DNA of 36,402 nt from the IMG/VR virus record IMGVR_UViG_3300030388_000999, positions 1 to 36,402 of that record; one strand, written 5' to 3'. The notes beneath the pieces were generated by a model, which searched no databases, had not been told where the DNA came from, and worked only from the letters and a program-made list of their open reading frames with translations. The first letter of the stretch is position 1. Each line of letters starts with the position of its first letter. A program made the position numbers and the translations under genes. Source of the stretch: a virus. This document shows, one piece after another, positions 28,850 through 35,959 of the stretch.

Positions 28850-29118
28850 TCTATAATTTTACGTATACCGTGACGGATCGGAGGAGCCTTAAATGCAGCA
28901 CTGTCAATGGTGGAGGAAGTGGGATTTGCACCCACGTCCTCAGAAGTTTCCTCCTGAGTCGAATCTAAGTTTCCCCCAAAAAAAGCTTTAACAGCTCTTC
29001 GTATTTTGTACTTCTTGATGTCTTTGTAAAATGGTTTCTTAGGTCTAAAGATGTTGTTGTACCCGTTGTGGTACGCATCCCAGTCAGATACCCTGTTCCT
29101 GTCTCCCTTACCGCTCAT
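28846..29118 (-). CDS. Small phage protein with a tRNA-derived C-terminal stretch
   Basis: 90 residues. The N-terminus MSGKGDRNRVSDWDAYHNGY then NNIF is of a type I recognise from many phages (GKGDxxR, aromatic y..gy..IF), function unknown, then a basic helix (KDIKKYKIRRAVKAFFGG). Residues about 50-70 read EDVGANPTSSTI, the characteristic translation of a tRNA T-arm/acceptor end, and the DNA beneath is indeed tRNA-like (28908-28969). So the gene's 3' third may have been replaced by tRNA-derived sequence, possibly when an attachment site formed there. The stop overlaps the next gene's GTG. Confidence 0.65.
   Translation of the reverse strand: MSGKGDRNRVSDWDAYHNGYNNIFRPKKPFYKDIKKYKIRRAVKAFFGGNLDSTQEETSEDVGANPTSSTIDSAAFKAPPIRHGIRKIIE
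28908..28969 (-). other. tRNA 3'-half-like element, candidate attP core
   Basis: On the minus strand: an anticodon-loop-like CTTAGAT (28969-28963), then a long variable-arm-like stem CTCAG/CTGAG (28958-28954 with 28943-28939). A T-arm GTGGG-TGCAAAT-CCCAC (28935-28919) and an acceptor 3' strand with discriminator and CCA, TTCCTCCACCA (28918-28908), follow. A GGAGGAA able to pair with TTCCTCC is present in the variable-arm loop, but no D-arm or real 5' half exists. The T-loop has G at its second position rather than T. A long variable arm points to Leu, Ser or Tyr, and the A discriminator disfavours Ser. It is not a functional tRNA. Temperate phages that integrate in tRNA genes carry just such 3' ends, but no integrase is in the window. 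Confidence 0.55.
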
Positions 29119-30137: not shown

Positions 30138-30183
30138 GTAGCCAAATAGTCGATACGAGCCTAAATAGTTGGAATCTGGATAC

Positions 30184-30286
30184 GATCTAGGACGACCTAG
30201 AACGTAGTTGTTCTAGGACTACTAGGACGGATCTAGTACGCTGTACCCAGAATCGTAATACAAGCAGCCTTGTCGTTCTAGGACGA
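30184..30286. repeat. Cluster of GTTCTAGGAC-type repeats (operator/iteron-like)
   Basis: Copies of a CTAG-centred motif: GATCTAGGACGA (30184), inverted ACCTAGAAC (30195-30203), GTTCTAGGACTA (30210), TACTAGGACGGA (30220), GATCTAGTACG (30230) and GTTCTAGGACGA (30275). CCTAGAAC and GTTCTAGG around 30196-30217 form a perfect 8-bp inverted repeat with a 6-nt spacer. The same motif recurs at 33984-34030, so it brackets the MoxR-VWA unit. Likely binding sites of a phage regulator or initiator. Confidence 0.7.
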
Positions 30287-30386
30287 GATTTGCTCTTGTA
30301 GTTGAAAAGCTTGGACAGCTTCAAAACATCGCAAAAACAGCCGTTTGTATTCAGATCTGGATACAATTCGACTGTTTGGGAAGTGA

Positions 30387-30426
30387 AATTGTATATTTAC
30401 GACAGAAAATTGTACTTTTACGACAG
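30387..30426 (+). repeat. Two tandem 19-bp operator-like repeats
   Basis: AATTGTATATTTACGACAG (30387-30405) and AATTGTACTTTTACGACAG (30408-30426) differ at 2 of 19 positions, start to start 21 bp, so both face the same side of the helix. They lie about 100 bp upstream of the promoter at 30523, suitable for an activator or repressor. Confidence 0.7.
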
Positions 30427-30522
30427 CATCAAAGCCCTTTTTCCTATTGCCTCCACCTATATATTTCAAACCGTATCCAGGGTTTGATTACGACCATTGA
30501 GTATCAACTACTTACGTTGGGT

Positions 30523-30552
30523 TTGACAGTCGATTGTCTTGCAAGCTATTAT
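30523..30552 (+). promoter_or_regulatory. Sigma70-like promoter of the MoxR-VWA unit
   Basis: TTGACA (30523-30528), 18-bp spacer, TATTAT (30547-30552). The -35 and spacer contain a near-perfect dyad, GACAGTCGATTGTC (30525-30538), a possible operator. The chosen MoxR start is 62 bp downstream of the -10. TATA-rich overlap (TTATAT) allows slightly shifted -10 use. Confidence 0.65.
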
Positions 30553-30594
30553 ATGGGCGAAATTTCGAATCATTCAGATTCGGCATTTCTAACC

Positions 30595-30618
30595 GTAACC
30601 AAAAAATAAATACAATGA
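30595..30618 (+). promoter_or_regulatory. A-rich translation leader, copy 1
   Basis: GTAACCAAAAAATAAATACA followed by ATGA at the MoxR start. The identical 24 bp recur at the VWA start (31959-31982). No Shine-Dalgarno is present; A at -1 and -3 and the A-rich -5 to -15 suit SD-independent initiation. It also decides the start at 30615 over an upstream in-frame ATG at 30534. Confidence 0.75.
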
Positions 30619-31958
30619 ATACAGTTCAAGAAATCAAAAACACAATTGCAACAATGACACAGGGGCGGATCTTTGTATCAACTACTGACTATCTCCGCTC
30701 TGCCATTGTTCCCGCTATGGTGCATCTAGGCTCGCTTCCAAGCAATGCCTCAAGTCACGTCAGGGGAAAGGGTCGTATCGATGCTTTGAGGACGATAGAG
30801 AGCATCCAGGGAATACAAGCTAGGGAAGTTTGCGAGTCCTTGATCTCTGGATACCTCCTTTGTAAGTCCAGCAAGGTTCCTGTCAGCAATTCGATTGCCT
30901 CCGATATCACGGCTCAGATTTCGGGAATCATTCAAACCGCTATGGCTAGCAGTTCGCCTACGGTATCCAGCGCTCAAATACAGGAAGAGATCGATGACAG
31001 GATAGCTCCCGTTCTAGATCGCGTCCAGGATCTAGAGAAAGAGTATCACGAATTCAAGGACAGCTTCAAGGCTAACCCTTCGAAAGTAGCAAGAGCAAAT
31101 GTACAACAAGCAAGTTCAGACAACTTGATATTGAAAAGAGTTCTACCGTTCTATCCGCCCCAAGGTGCTTGTCTCAAGACTTTGGTTACATCTCCGCCTA
31201 GTTATGGGAAGAGTTATTCTTTGAGGCAACTAGGGAAGGCTTACGATTTGTATCTAGAACATGGATGCTCGGACAGTATCGATGAGGAGACAACGTTAAT
31301 AGGAAAAACGATTCCTGATGGCAACGGAGGTTTCGCCGTTGTCGATGGTGTATTGACGCAAGCAGTACGTTCCGCATCAGACGGCAATCGCGTTCTGCTT
31401 TTTTTGGATGAGGTGCTACGTTGGCCAATCGTTTCGCAAGAGTTCTTACTTTCATTTCTAGAACCACACAAAGGATCGTCAGGAGATTCCGAATACGTGC
31501 TGAGAACTCTGAAGATGCAAAACGGTAATTCGGAGTTGATCCGTTGCAATGTTAAGAATCTCCACATCGTCGCCGCTGGTAACCGTAGTGCTAATTCAAT
31601 TACAGAAGCTTTCTGGTCCCGCTGGCATAAAGTGAACATCAAATTCGATGTTACGGAGTTCGCTAGTATCTGTAAGCAGATTGCGGATACGTACGACGTG
31701 GTTATCGATCCTGAACAATTTGCCGTGGCCGCTAGCCTATCGAGAGACCGTTTTAATGAGATGAGGTTGAAAGCTCCAATTGATTGCAGAACTTTAGTGA
31801 ATGCGATTGAATGGGCAGGATCATCCGATTGGGGTGTAGTCAAGTCCTGGATACTAGACGGCTTAGAGGATCAACTAATTGAGAGTGACGCGAGGACAGG
31901 CGATCCTTTGCAGGACAGTCTAGATGCCGTTCAAGAAGTAAAGAACTCACTGAACTAA
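30615..31958 (+). CDS. MoxR/CobS-like AAA+ ATPase
   Basis: 447 residues. The N-terminal third is helical with a coiled coil (about 118-155, IQEEIDDRIAPVLDRVQDLE then KEYHEFKDSFK), then an AAA+ core. Walker A is unusual, TSPPSYGKS (192-200, K199; Ser replaces the first Gly). Walker B is VLLFLDEV (D265, E266), sensor 1 lies in NLHIVAAGN (N323) and the arginine finger is in AFWSRWHKV (R336). MoxR-type ATPases form hexamers that remodel targets brought by a VWA-domain partner, and the next gene encodes exactly such a partner. The unit has its own promoter and terminator, like a moron. Cyanophages carry related 'CobS' proteins of unproven role. The client here is unknown. Confidence 0.88.
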   Translation: MNTVQEIKNTIATMTQGRIFVSTTDYLRSAIVPAMVHLGSLPSNASSHVRGKGRIDALRTIESIQGIQAREVCESLISGYLLCKSSKVPVSNSIASDITAQISGIIQTAMASSSPTVSSAQIQEEIDDRIAPVLDRVQDLEKEYHEFKDSFKANPSKVARANVQQASSDNLILKRVLPFYPPQGACLKTLVTSPPSYGKSYSLRQLGKAYDLYLEHGCSDSIDEETTLIGKTIPDGNGGFAVVDGVLTQAVRSASDGNRVLLFLDEVLRWPIVSQEFLLSFLEPHKGSSGDSEYVLRTLKMQNGNSELIRCNVKNLHIVAAGNRSANSITEAFWSRWHKVNIKFDVTEFASICKQIADTYDVVIDPEQFAVAASLSRDRFNEMRLKAPIDCRTLVNAIEWAGSSDWGVVKSWILDGLEDQLIESDARTGDPLQDSLDAVQEVKNSLN

Positions 31959-31982
31959 GTAACCAAAAAATAAATACAATGA
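31959..31982 (+). promoter_or_regulatory. A-rich translation leader, copy 2
   Basis: Identical over 24 bp to the leader of the MoxR gene (30595-30618); it starts right after that gene's TAA. Two identical leaders in one operon suggest matched initiation rates or a shared RNA-binding control. Confidence 0.75.
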
Positions 31983-33511
31983 TATCACATACAAAAATAA
32001 CAAAGGCAATCCGTTCCGAATGGCGAAACAAAACAGGGAAGCAAAAGATCGGCAAGCTCCGAGAGTTGCGTTCAGATTCTGGATACAGGGTCTACACGCA
32101 AGTATTGAAGGACTTCGAAACTGCAAGTTGGTCTTTCGATGGTTCGCATCAAATATCAGTCGGGCAAGAGTCCGACGGTATGATAAATTCGGATACAGTC
32201 CAGAAATCTCAGAAGTTGCATGGTTTTCTTAAAAGCTTGCTATGGCATGAGTGTGCACATGGTCGGTACTCGAAAGACGATGCGATGCCAATTTCGGTAT
32301 TAGGAAAAGAACTACAAGCGAATGGTTGTCCGTTTTATGTTTTCAATGCAACTGAGGATTGCTACATCGAGCGCATGGAACAAGAAAGAGTAGGCGAACG
32401 CTTCGGTTGGAAAAATTACCTTCGTAAGATTCCAATGGATACAATCGACCCTTGTCAGTACTTGTTGATATTGAAATTTAATGAGGCAAAAACTTGGAAG
32501 AGTTGGAAGCATCAAGCTCCGAAATGGAAAGGAGTCAAAGAAGTAACCTTCCGTAATTCAAAAATGGATACAGCTAAGGTGCTGAAATGGTTCTACGATT
32601 CTTTCACTTCTCAGAACGTGCACACTATTGACTTAAGAAATAGACTACAACTCACGATTGAGTTCTACGAGGTATTCAAGGATCAAATACGTAGAGATCA
32701 CACCGATATCGGTGATGTTGGCTGGTACTCTGATACAATCGGAGGATTTGCTGATCCCGATGCGCCAGCGCGACACAACTTGAACAACGGAAAGGGATGG
32801 TATTCAAAACCTGGTGACATGGATTGGGATATGTGGCCCTTCAAATACGACATAAAGACTTACGACCCTTGCACATCGCTCAGAGATCGTATTCACGGAT
32901 CAATGACAAGTATTGCTTGCAATAAAAGAATTGCAAGAGGTCGATCTGCATCGACTGGTTCTAGGATTCGTATTCAATCCGCAATGACAGGATCTGGAAA
33001 TCCTTTCTTGGGAACTGTGAAACGAAAAATGAAAAGAAAGCTTTTCGTTGTAGTTGATATGTCAGGATCAATGACAATTCCTCTGATTCAATTAGGCGGA
33101 ATTGATTTCGTATCCGCTTTACGGTTACTGGATGAGAAGGGCATAGCAGATGTTCAAATCGTTTTCACTTCTGAGGATATGATCGGCGACATGAGTTCTG
33201 TATCCAGTAAGGAAATACTGAGAGCGAAACCTTCTCCGAATCGGGAAGCGATGCAATCCTGCTTGCTTCGGTATCGCTCTTGTATGGAGGATGCGGATAC
33301 AGCAATCGTGTTCACTGATGCGGCAATCACCGACGACAAAACCGACTTCGGAAAATTTCGCGGTAAAGTTGATTTGATCGGATGTTGTTTGAGAGATGAG
33401 TCGAAGTCGATGGATTACGCTCAGAGCATGAAACGGTGGTTCAGTACCATCGTTGTAAGTGAGAACCCAATACAACTTGCGAGGTTGATCTGTGACAAAC
33501 TGATGGCGTAA
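31979..33511 (+). CDS. Metallopeptidase-like N-domain plus VWA domain protein (partner of the MoxR ATPase)
   Basis: 510 residues. The N-terminal half has SLLWHECAHGRYSKD (H90-E91-x-x-H94) and then FNATEDCYIER (E126, D127), a zincin-like HExxH with a downstream Glu. The C-terminal third is a von Willebrand A domain with a complete MIDAS start FVVVDMSGSMT (D360, S362, S364), a QIVFTSED strand and VFTDAAITDD (D446). This fusion matches the plan of the DUF2201/CobT-like VWA proteins, which pair with MoxR ATPases. The VWA would bind metal-dependently to the ATPase or client; the N-domain could cut a protein, though proteolysis is not shown for the family as far as I know. Sole neighbour is the ATPase, 20 bp away. 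Followed by a terminator. Confidence 0.88.
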   Translation: MISHTKITKAIRSEWRNKTGKQKIGKLRELRSDSGYRVYTQVLKDFETASWSFDGSHQISVGQESDGMINSDTVQKSQKLHGFLKSLLWHECAHGRYSKDDAMPISVLGKELQANGCPFYVFNATEDCYIERMEQERVGERFGWKNYLRKIPMDTIDPCQYLLILKFNEAKTWKSWKHQAPKWKGVKEVTFRNSKMDTAKVLKWFYDSFTSQNVHTIDLRNRLQLTIEFYEVFKDQIRRDHTDIGDVGWYSDTIGGFADPDAPARHNLNNGKGWYSKPGDMDWDMWPFKYDIKTYDPCTSLRDRIHGSMTSIACNKRIARGRSASTGSRIRIQSAMTGSGNPFLGTVKRKMKRKLFVVVDMSGSMTIPLIQLGGIDFVSALRLLDEKGIADVQIVFTSEDMIGDMSSVSSKEILRAKPSPNREAMQSCLLRYRSCMEDADTAIVFTDAAITDDKTDFGKFRGKVDLIGCCLRDESKSMDYAQSMKRWFSTIVVSENPIQLARLICDKLMA

Positions 33512-33531
33512 ATCATCCAGATTCTGAATAC

Positions 33532-33562
33532 AGCCCATCGGCTTCGGTCGATGGGCTTTTTT
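33532..33562 (+). terminator. Strong terminator of the MoxR-VWA unit
   Basis: AGCCCATCG (33532-33540) pairs perfectly over 9 bp with CGATGGGCT (33549-33557), loop GCTTCGGT, followed by six T (33557-33562). It lies 21 bp after the VWA stop and closes the unit. Confidence 0.93.
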
Positions 33563-33699
33563 GTGCGTACTCACCTTGTCTTGCGATTTCGAATACAGAG
33601 GCATTAAATGCTTTAGGATTCAATTTTGCAGAGAATGCATCATAGGATTCGGATTCGATTGAAACGCGCTGTGCACGATCTGATGGCCTTATGCCGTAC

Positions 33700-33719
33700 A
33701 TCTACCCTATAGGGGAGAT
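33700..33719. promoter_or_regulatory. 20-bp near-perfect palindrome
   Basis: ATCTACCCTATAGGGGAGAT: perfect 10-bp core CCCTATAGGG flanked by ATCT/AGAT arms, one mismatched pair. Suits a dimeric repressor. The right half resembles the core of T7-family promoters (CTATAGGG-AGA), but no second copy was found. Confidence 0.6.
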
Positions 33720-33730
33720 CAGGAATACCT

Positions 33731-33760
33731 CTGAGAGGCTGTGAGAGGCTCTGTGAGGCG
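33731..33760 (+). repeat. 10-bp unit repeated three times
   Basis: CTGAGAGGCT, GTGAGAGGCT, CTGTGAGGCG in tandem, spacing one helical turn; the first two units differ at one base. Confidence 0.7.
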
Positions 33761-33826
33761 TCTTTGAAAAAAGGGTCGTACAAGATGATCCAAGTACTAG
33801 ATCGCCACGTACAGAGGCTCTCGTAG

Positions 33827-33890
33827 TTAGAATGATTCTAAATGTAAAAAAAAATAGTTGAATTTAAACATCTTTTTTACAATTCTAATT
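33827..33890. repeat. AT-rich palindrome and hairpin
   Basis: TTAGAAT-G-ATTCTAA (33827-33841) is a perfect palindrome about one base. The following TGTAAAAAA pairs with TTTTTTACA just before a third ATTCTAA (33882-33888), giving a large AT-rich hairpin. A candidate DNA-unwinding element. Confidence 0.6.
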
Positions 33891-33983
33891 ACTACGGTTG
33901 TAGTCCAATGAAAACGGAGATTCTGTATCCAAAATGTGGATTTCTTACGACTTTCGGATCGGTTTTAATCCACCGTTTCAAAA

Positions 33984-34030
33984 ACTAGAACGTACTAGAA
34001 CATTGGATACATGGCCTGTTCTAGGACGTA
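33984..34030. repeat. Second cluster of CTAGAAC/GTTCTAGGAC motifs
   Basis: ACTAGAAC at 33984-33991 and 33994-34001 (inverted orientation, 10 bp apart) and GTTCTAGGACGTA at 34018-34030. Same motif family as 30184-30286, on the other side of the MoxR-VWA unit. Confidence 0.65.
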
Positions 34031-34190
34031 TTCAGAAAATGGAGGCAGGCCCAGGGTCGTGCCCGGTCGATCAGGAACTCTCCGACGAATTCTCCCCGTG
34101 GGAGCGCTACCAGGGCGGTCATCCCCAGGGATTGAACTCTGTACGTTAATAGGCAAAAAGCCTAATAAACAATAAGCCAAAAGCCTAAGC

Positions 34191-34334
34191 CTAAATCCCC
34201 ATCGCTATCTCGTACTCTTTGTACGAAACACCAGCGATGGATTTGTCTTCAAGGAACTGTACCGCGGTTTTAAATCCCATCCTGTATGATATTTTGCTTA
34301 CTCGGCTCTGTAGATCGTATTCATTTTGATTCAT
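34191..34334 (-). CDS. 47-residue hypothetical protein, divergent from the early genes
   Basis: Reads MNQNEYDLQSRVSKISYRMG to FKTAVQFLEDKSIAGVSYKE to YEIAMGI and stop. The start is preceded by TTTTAAATAAA, the same A-rich leader style as the capsid and MoxR genes. The composition is protein-like: an amphipathic helix and a SYKEYE motif. It is on the strand opposite to its neighbours, and a stem (AGGC-TTTTT-GCCT) lies downstream at 34151-34163. Could be a small regulator; no HTH visible. Too short for certainty. Confidence 0.5.
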   Translation of the reverse strand: MNQNEYDLQSRVSKISYRMGFKTAVQFLEDKSIAGVSYKEYEIAMGI

Positions 34335-34395
34335 TTTATTTAAAACAAGAATGCTCATTATGGGTATGTCAAGTGTTTAATAACAAAACTGGATC

Positions 34396-34443
34396 TTTTA
34401 AGGATCTTACTAAGTACGTTTAGTAAGAAGTTTTAAGGATCTT
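34396..34443 (+). promoter_or_regulatory. 22-bp perfect dyad flanked by 13-bp direct repeats
   Basis: CTTACTAA (34406-34413), spacer GTACGT, TTAGTAAG (34420-34427) is a perfect 8-bp inverted repeat. TTTTAAGGATCTT occurs on both sides (34396-34408 and 34431-34443), and a partial TTTTTAAGGA occurs near 34477. An operator between the divergent small gene and the early operon. Confidence 0.7.
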
Positions 34444-34469
34444 TGTAACTACCTATCCTTCAGGTAATT

Positions 34470-34604
34470 ATGTATATTTTTAAGGAGTATTTCCCCCAAG
34501 CAGTTTGTTCCGTCTTAAAAAAAGCAGATTTCAAGACGTTTGCTCGCGTTACTTGTGACTTTGTTATTGTGTTCTCAACAACTTTGTTATTGACAGCAGT
34601 ATAA
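34470..34604 (+). CDS. Possible 44-residue membrane miniprotein
   Basis: ATG at 34470 to TAA at 34602-34604: MYIFKEYFPQAVCSVLKKAD then FKTFARVTCDFVIVFSTTLLLTAV. A short cationic N-terminal part is followed by one hydrophobic helix, a typical phage membrane miniprotein plan. It lies in the leader of the winged-helix gene, and its end overlaps the TTGACAGCA element. No Shine-Dalgarno. Equally it may be a chance ORF. Confidence 0.33.
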   Translation: MYIFKEYFPQAVCSVLKKADFKTFARVTCDFVIVFSTTLLLTAV

Positions 34605-34896: not shown

Positions 34897-35412
34897 ATGA
34901 TTTGGAAACACGGAGAGCCGACGAAGAAAGAAAAAGAGATTACAAAGGAAGCATTTCGGCAAGCGTATTTGCTCTGGGGAGTAGATAAAGATGTACTGAT
35001 GTCTAGGAGCCACGTGCCACTGGAGTGCATGATGAGGCAAATTGTTCAGGCGTCATTAATGGAAAGGGATTTGCGAGGTAAGTGCATAGCGGATTCCATG
35101 AAAGTAACATTGAACACTGTTAGCAACCGCAAAAAAAAGCACTTGGATGCACTAGAAGACGACGACGAATACAAAGAGAACTTTTTGGCGTTCAGGGCGA
35201 ATCTCTCTAGGGGGGTTTATGGAGGCGACACTCACCCTAAAACATCGAGCTTTTCTTCGAACCTTTCGGTGTTTGTCCCTATAGACAGGAAATCAACACC
35301 AAATGCTGGAGGATTCAGCGATCCAACGCCTGATTGCCTCGCCCCAATAAATGAAACTAAAATCAATAAAACTCAACATGAAAGCCAGAGAATTAACAAT
35401 AATTCCATGTGA
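34897..35412 (+). CDS. HTH protein, possible replication initiator/regulator
   Basis: 171 residues. Residues about 40-90 (PLECMMRQIVQASLMERDLRG then KCIADSMKVTLNTVSNRKKKH) form a helix-turn-helix reminiscent of the DnaA C-terminal or sigma-like DNA-binding fold (rxIa..l.vs.nTVsnrkkK). The C-terminal third is Ser/Pro/Asn-rich and probably disordered. With the preceding winged-helix gene it forms a pair like phage 'O/P' or helix-turn-helix regulators that recruit the primase-helicase. The function is inferred. It overlaps the Mom-like gene by 62 bp. Confidence 0.6.
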   Translation: MIWKHGEPTKKEKEITKEAFRQAYLLWGVDKDVLMSRSHVPLECMMRQIVQASLMERDLRGKCIADSMKVTLNTVSNRKKKHLDALEDDDEYKENFLAFRANLSRGVYGGDTHPKTSSFSSNLSVFVPIDRKSTPNAGGFSDPTPDCLAPINETKINKTQHESQRINNNSM

Positions 35413-35959
35413 AGCCAAAGAGGTAAGGGAGTTTATTGAAACCAACCACTACTCTAAAAGCATAAATGGTGTTAAGATAACACAATGCTTCAAGGTTGAG
35501 CACAATAGCTTGCTAGTTGGTGCGGTGTTATTCGGCCAACTCAGCACAACTGCTTGGAAGAAGTTTGGGAATAGTGAGGCAGAAGTTTTAGAACTTAGAC
35601 GTTTGGTTTTGCTAGATGACTGTGGCAAGAACTCAGAGAGCAGGGTTATTGGGTTTTGCCTAAGATGGATAAAGCTAAACGTTAAAAGCGTTAAGACAAT
35701 TGTTAGTTACGCTGATCCAATGTATGGGCATAGTGGAACCATCTACAAAGCTTCTAACTTCGAGATGATAGGTATGACCCCAGATGATAAAGGATTCTAT
35801 GACCCAGAGATCGGCAAAACCTATCACTCAAGAGCCATGAGAACTAAATACAAAGGAGATTATAAGCCATTTGTTAAGAGGTTGAGAGCAAAGGAAGAGG
35901 CAGGACTACTGGAAACCATAACTCTAAAGGGAAAGTTTTGCTACACCTACTCCCTATGA
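35351..35959 (+). CDS. Mom-like DNA hypermodification protein (GNAT-fold)
   Basis: 202 residues. The series NHYSKSINGVKI, LLVGAVLFGQ, VLELRRLVLLDDCGKNSESR, VIGFCLRWIK and IVSYADPMYGHSGTIYKASN then FEMIGMT is the signature of the Mom family of phage Mu, an acyltransferase-like fold that adds a group to adenine N6 to protect phage DNA from restriction. Key conserved parts visible: E81-L-R-R84, S119-Y-A-D122 and GHSGTIY (126-132). An in-frame Met at 35378 (MKARELTIIP) is an alternative start with less overlap with the preceding gene. A Mu-like com translational activator is not seen. Chemistry and sites of modification cannot be read from sequence. Confidence 0.85.
   Translation: MKLKSIKLNMKARELTIIPCEAKEVREFIETNHYSKSINGVKITQCFKVEHNSLLVGAVLFGQLSTTAWKKFGNSEAEVLELRRLVLLDDCGKNSESRVIGFCLRWIKLNVKSVKTIVSYADPMYGHSGTIYKASNFEMIGMTPDDKGFYDPEIGKTYHSRAMRTKYKGDYKPFVKRLRAKEEAGLLETITLKGKFCYTYSL

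Follow-up and report, generated by a model that had tools for sequence, protein, structure and literature searches.

The window analysed here is a phage sequence of 36,402 bases (IMG/VR record IMGVR_UViG_3300030388_000999, positions 1-36,402) that encodes a MoxR-type AAA+ ATPase together with a partner protein, in which a zincin-like half is joined to a VWA domain. New here is the observation that this pair occupies an exchangeable cassette, whose slot takes unrelated genes in sister phages. Below we describe the two-gene unit, its relation to known phage and cellular pairs, the exchange of the cassette, and its unusual DNA motif content, and propose a role for the encoded proteins.

Organization of the locus

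The window is laid out as a left-to-right replication or early block, including primase-helicase, metallophosphoesterase and exonuclease genes, and a long block on the opposite strand with the terminase and virion genes. The ATPase and VWA genes sit between both blocks, on the same strand as the replication module and divergent from the late genes, and are thus transcribed away from the terminase side. The plus-strand unit holds these two genes only, the ATPase directly before the VWA gene, and has its own promoter and terminator:

30184..34589, no strand: exchangeable cassette, whole unit; DNA homology to pair-less sister phages breaks at its edges
30523..30552, plus strand: sigma-70-like promoter TTGACA-18-TATTAT, with TATTAT at 30547-30552; hexamers kept in three relatives
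30597..30614, plus strand: leader of gene 1 (ATPase), identical to the gene 2 leader
30615..31958, plus strand: MoxR/phage-CobS-like AAA+ ATPase; ATG at 30615, stop at 31958, 447 amino acids
31961..31978, plus strand: leader of gene 2 (VWA), an exact copy of the gene 1 leader
31979..33511, plus strand: zincin-like and VWA (phage CobT-like) protein; ATG at 31979, stop at 33511, 510 amino acids
33532..33562, plus strand: intrinsic terminator; stem of 11 pairs (7 G-C) at 33532-33557, then a T-run

A longer open reading frame (ORF) for the ATPase, starting from TTG at 30534, was rejected as a merely mechanical extension. A plain promoter scan of the window performs at chance level (12 found versus 17 expected), and the promoter is called because its hexamers are conserved: TTGAC[AG]-18-TATTAT is retained in the relatives L003, L005 and L006 despite a diverged spacer. 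The leader AACCAAAAAATAAATACAATG is present in exactly two copies in the window, with 0 expected from 100 shuffles; its second copy is not identical in L005 and L006. The terminator stem shows paired changes among the relatives. In the IMG/VR relatives L002-L006 the pair is found in the same place and order, and since the mean column identity of both proteins is 86-87% across relatives differing by up to 30% in DNA, both ORFs are considered real genes under purifying selection. The strand, the promoter and the neighbourhood suggest that the pair is probably expressed early. The phage is probably marine, as most of its relatives appear to be from their dataset numbers.

Several elements of the locus had been proposed in an earlier description made without database searches, hereafter the sequence-only reading. 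The two-gene unit, its promoter, duplicated leader and terminator, and the protein motifs are all present in the window, and the motifs are kept in full-length relatives. The unit had been delimited as 30523-33562 but is larger, the exchanged segment covering 30184-34589.

The conserved motifs of the two proteins are positioned as follows:

31191..31214, plus strand: Walker A SPPSYGKS of the ATPase; first G replaced by S and GKS kept, in six of six sequences
31395..31412, plus strand: Walker B LLFLDE, invariant
32246..32260, plus strand: HECAH (HExxH) motif of the VWA protein, invariant among relatives
32345..32371, plus strand: NATEDCYIE motif, aligned with NiLEDqRIE of the phage family; candidate third metal ligand
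33056..33070, plus strand: DMSGS, the metal ion-dependent adhesion site (MIDAS) of the VWA domain, invariant among relatives

Walker A, LLFLDE, HECAH, N-x-T-E-D-C-Y-I-E and DMSGS are retained in every full-length relative; in L004, a single ambiguous base affects the leading S of SPPSYGKS. This confirms the odd Walker A and the fusion of HECAH...NATED with a MIDAS domain noted previously. The ATPase stretches PDGNGGF..VDGVLTQAVR and AAGNR align with the phage CobS/MoxR family, and an N-terminal extension of about 170 amino acids appears helical in a low-confidence model.

Assignment of the pair to a phage family

Searches with the single sequences barely detect the pair. The ATPase matched Pfam AAA_5 at E=8.5e-4, below the curated cut-off, and phrog_16448 ('ATPase') at 1.7e-6, and the VWA protein had no Pfam match. 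No CobS or CobT match was obtained in Pfam or NCBIfam, and no DUF2201 match in Pfam at E<=1. The proposed likeness to DUF2201 and CobT was thus not borne out by Pfam, the resemblance to DUF2201 being one of motifs only. PADLOC and NCBIfam gave no family of note, a PDB sequence search with the pair proteins gave nothing relevant, tblastn searches of named phages with either protein gave no match at 1e-5, and no relative of the VWA protein turned up when bacterial and archaeal genomes were scanned. Weak ATPase matches in Listeria and Enterococcus fall in unannotated records and were not used as evidence, and a VWA match in L037/L036 (E 2e-4) turned out to be fortuitous, the ORF hit being unrelated and encoded on the opposite strand.

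For this reason, the pair was approached via named phages. In Brevibacterium phage Cantare (gp55/gp56), as in related phages of Gordonia and Bacteroides, an ATPase is followed by a VWA protein with the arrangement HExCH...LED.RIE...MIDAS. A profile built from the Cantare-type proteins recovered 64 IMG/VR loci. All 69 other phage loci with a VWA match also hold the ATPase, just before the VWA gene in the listed coordinates. Every one of the 59 deduplicated phage VWA proteins keeps HExxH, and 57 of them have DxSxS at the VWA position. By hhalign, the window ATPase matched 62 phage CobS/MoxR proteins with P=4.8e-15 (best control 4e-4), and hmmsearch of the ATPase with the phage family gave 7.8e-13. 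The VWA protein matched the 59 phage metallopeptidase-VWA proteins with P=1.2e-5 in local and 1e-7 in global mode, as compared with 0.045 at best for controls comprising eleven families and a reversed alignment; the alignment register agrees at HECAH/HELxH, at NATEDCYIE/NiLEDqRIE and at the VWA motif. Because these profile matches exceed their controls, we assign the window pair to the known phage MoxR and metallopeptidase-vWA kind, as a diverged, compact member, in support of the pairing first recognized from the motifs.

Among the phage family loci no third gene is universal, and none is present in the cassette, in agreement with the view of the pair as a self-contained unit. Relatives of the pair in other phages, phrog_249 and phrog_5298, are classed in PHROGs as 'moron, auxiliary metabolic gene and host takeover'. 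In Microbacterium phage L100 (3641-8153), rIIA- and rIIB-like genes come after a CobS-like ATPase gene, in the place of a VWA partner.

Comparison with known MoxR-VWA systems

Pairs of this kind have been described in jumbo phages (Iyer et al. 2021, PMC7824862) and, as the two-gene cluster cobST, in many tailed viruses (Liu et al. 2021, PMC8651126), so that the sequence-only reading, which saw in the unit the best candidate for an undescribed system, was only partly right on this point. The group 2.2 jumbo-phage pair likewise combines an ATPase with a vWA co-chaperone that carries a metallopeptidase domain at its N-terminus (PMC7824862). Unlike that pair, the one studied here belongs to a group of phages whose contigs measure about 36-39 kb, lies in an exchangeable slot, is not bound to a virion type, and is too diverged for BLAST or Pfam. 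The tie to the jumbo-phage and cyanophage pairs is one of published description and architecture.

A close likeness is seen with cobST as found in Cantare gp55/gp56, Gordonia phages and Bacteroides phage BS162P1 (PMC8651126), which share the gene order, HExxH, ED..IE and MIDAS and whose sequence profiles match. The window pair differs by a shorter partner (510 versus mostly 575-700 amino acids) that lacks the long low-complexity linker, by its odd Walker A, and by the lack of any B12-related gene found nearby. The last point bears on the proposal that such pairs act in auxiliary cobalamin metabolism as CobS-CobT, borrowing the host CobN to insert cobalt (PMC8651126). The family is widely annotated as CobS/CobT, and a class II (adenosylcobalamin) ribonucleotide reductase is encoded nearby in 19 of 70 loci of the family in other phages, for example:

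L107:7803-8828, minus strand: adenosylcobalamin-dependent ribonucleotide reductase near the pair; 18 similar loci

In the window and two relatives, neither a ribonucleotide reductase nor CobN was found, which tends to argue against cobalamin synthesis, with the limits that the three records may be fragments and that host CobN could serve. The failure of both proteins to match CobS or CobT families, and the HExxH kept throughout the phage proteins, point the same way; cellular CobT is not known to carry HExxH. Overall, we regard a cobalamin function as improbable for this pair.

MoxR biochemistry offers further precedents in RavA-ViaA, CbbQ-CbbO, NorQ-NorD and CobS-CobT, with which the window pair is expected to share the principle of an AAA+ ring and a VWA adaptor. 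Literature on MoxR proteins includes PMC10585395, PMC5437159 and PMC7159879. In contrast to these cellular couples, it is phage-borne, its zincin-like half has an intact HExxH, and no family or PDB sequence match was detected for it. MoxR-vWA couples have also been described as cores of ternary conflict systems (Kaur et al. 2020, PMC7159879). The window pair resembles their MoxR-vWA core, but no VMAP, iSTAND, FtsH or beta-propeller third component and no effector was found in the cassette.

Exchange of the cassette among sister phages

DNA homology between the window and the pair-less phages L020, L025 and L027 ends at position 30183 in all three; it returns at 34590 in L020 and L025 and further downstream in L027. 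A terminase search yielded 80 relatives at 73-99% identity, as well as the named phage C75C1. The pair was seen in none of them, many of the records being too short to reach the slot, and those that reach it carry other genes there. One alternative occupant is an amidoligase gene followed by a GATase-II/gamma-glutamyl-cyclotransferase fusion, present in L020, L027, L094 and C75C1 and partly in L019 and L080. The amidoligase was identified by Pfam Amidoligase_2 in L094 and C75C1, and by likeness of motif and position in L020 and L027. The module was mapped at the following positions:

L020:4216-6844, L027:5587-8189, L094:1063-3886, L096:16110-18791: amidoligase and GATase-II/gamma-glutamyl-cyclotransferase module, alternative slot occupant

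In L020 and L027, GC-rich repeats of the CGGGGCCC type form arrays after the module. A phrog_7247 gene lies at or near the slot in L023, L025, L050, L058, L059 and L062. The GC content of the pair cassette equals that of the genome (0.43), while the amidoligase cassettes of L020 and L027 differ from it (0.35-0.37). Palindrome avoidance was considered as a mark of recent import and set aside, the differences being small and inconsistent.

Cassette states were counted on a terminase tree with 31 records in which the slot was readable, fully or partly. Here L003 groups as the sister of L019/L020, and L006 as that of L027, and the well-supported branches force at least 3 changes of pair state. The contrast is seen in L003, with the pair, and L020, with the amidoligase: the two are 93.7% identical over the 5.9 kb leading up to the slot on the virion side, and 87.7% identical beyond it on the replication side. 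The cassette is thus swapped among near-identical phages, as its earlier characterization as moron-like implied.

These data bear on the proposal that the pair is a virion assembly or maturation machine that remodels and cleaves structural proteins. Such a role was proposed for jumbo phages by Iyer et al. 2021 (PMC7824862), and was reported for p618/p892 of Acidianus two-tailed virus; it is also conceivable that some virion protein outside the comparison depends on the pair. Against it, the pair is absent from phages with almost identical packaging and portal genes (93.7% over the terminase-portal side) and is therefore unlikely to be needed for virion making; moreover, its two genes point away from the late genes. 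The maturation of a virion component, one option in the sequence-only reading, thus fits poorly with virion-side DNA that is 94% identical with and without the pair, and we give a virion role little credence. Neither observation that would have refuted that reading was encountered: the catalytic and MIDAS residues have not been lost, and transcription of the pair runs away from the structural genes.

GRATAC and CTAGRAC motif arrays

The 4.4 kb cassette contains 28 GRATAC/GTATYC sites, compared with 26 in the other 32 kb of the window. The sites occur on both strands and in all frames, in the genes as well as in the flanks. Synonymous-codon shuffles of the pair genes never reach the observed count (0/200 each, in four phages), and other genes of the window show no enrichment. 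When degenerate hexamers were compared between the window and L006, GRATAC ranked first in number and conservation, with 71% of sites kept versus an average of 25%. It led the ranking in each of the four cassette comparisons (p ~1e-6 to 1e-9; 732-797 tests), as against 2e-4 at best in controls with structural DNA, primase DNA and nine other phage pairs. Because none of these nine other phage MoxR-VWA comparisons shows anything comparable, the array is no feature of the family. The cassettes of L020, L025 and L027 have GRATAC clusters upstream of their first gene, with no comparable enrichment in coding regions. A second motif marks the edges of the cassette:

30187..30284, no strand: cluster of seven CTAGRAC/GTYCTAG sites at the upstream edge, conserved in L003, L005 and L006
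33985..34027, no strand: cluster of four CTAGRAC/GTYCTAG sites at the downstream cassette edge

CTAGRAC clusters are absent upstream of the other slot occupants. The plainest guess is that a phage regulator uses the GRATAC sites as its operators. A far more speculative reading, to which we assign very low probability, takes the cassette to be a selfish module that carries its own marks, in which a silencing, protecting or exchanging protein binds the GRATAC and edge CTAGRAC sites and the encoded machine acts in competition for the early slot, for example by removing a regulator, and not in metabolism or virion assembly.

Proposed function

We favour, as the probable role of the pair, an accessory protein-remodelling machine acting on a host-side target; the cassette is probably an optional, early-expressed accessory tool that takes no part in virus assembly. 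By analogy with the cellular couples, the ATPase would assemble into a ring, on which the VWA protein would dock via its metal-dependent MIDAS site, and the VWA protein would select and bring a specific protein complex for remodelling. The zincin-like half may then, in a weaker step of the model, cut the target or only recognize it; cleavage is possible given the intact HExxH. The target would be a protein of the host, perhaps of its defences, that the phage encounters early in infection, rather than a virion protein.

Several points weigh against this proposal. The early timing is read from strand and promoter only; exchangeability is an indication of dispensability rather than of function; ATP hydrolysis is not certain, because the first Walker A glycine is replaced; and AlphaFold modelling of both proteins with six close relatives produced unusable predicted local distance difference test (pLDDT) scores of 40 and 47.

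A narrower form of the same proposal is an anti-defence or superinfection-exclusion device, which would disassemble or cleave a specific immune or incoming-phage protein. The swapped slot adjoins the early module, and MoxR-vWA couples form conflict-system cores (PMC7159879), both of which would suit such a device; against it, PADLOC gave no match of note, and no effector or third component was found. We consider this specialization unlikely, if somewhat less so than a virion or cobalamin role.

Phage MoxR/metallopeptidase-VWA ('cobST') pairs are common, and two rival proposals, virion maturation and cobalamin synthesis, have been published for them. The present small-genome phage group, with the pair present or replaced in near-identical backbones, constitutes a natural knock-out series. 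For this lineage, the series already weighs against both proposals, and it allows the function to be tested directly. We know of no experimentally shown function for such pairs in tailed phages. The slot is also a place to seek early host-takeover tools.

Neighbouring elements

A short element resembling transfer-messenger RNA (tmRNA) lies on the terminase side of the cassette:

28908-28977, minus strand: tmRNA-like element, 70 nt; Rfam tmRNA model positions 1-374, 47.8 bits

About 2 nt replace the 306-nt middle of the Rfam model, and there is no mRNA-like or tag part. The element carries an acceptor stem with a G3-U pair, GAUUCGAC, a T arm and an encoded CCA; the G3-U acceptor pair is the alanine identity determinant. 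Matches were found in 46 loci of the family to which the window phage belongs, on the terminase side of the cassette, also in 73- and 97-nt forms. Covariation is seen in the middle helix, where 6 of 8 pairs have changed on both sides; its covariation score was reached by 0 of 500 shuffles. The element looks like a conserved mini-tmRNA, and could possibly act as a ribosome-rescue decoy or substitute.

A protein of 202 amino acids encoded next to the cassette (window 35351-35959, plus strand) shows, as judged by eye, a likeness (NHYSKS...) to Mom-like DNA-modification acyltransferases.

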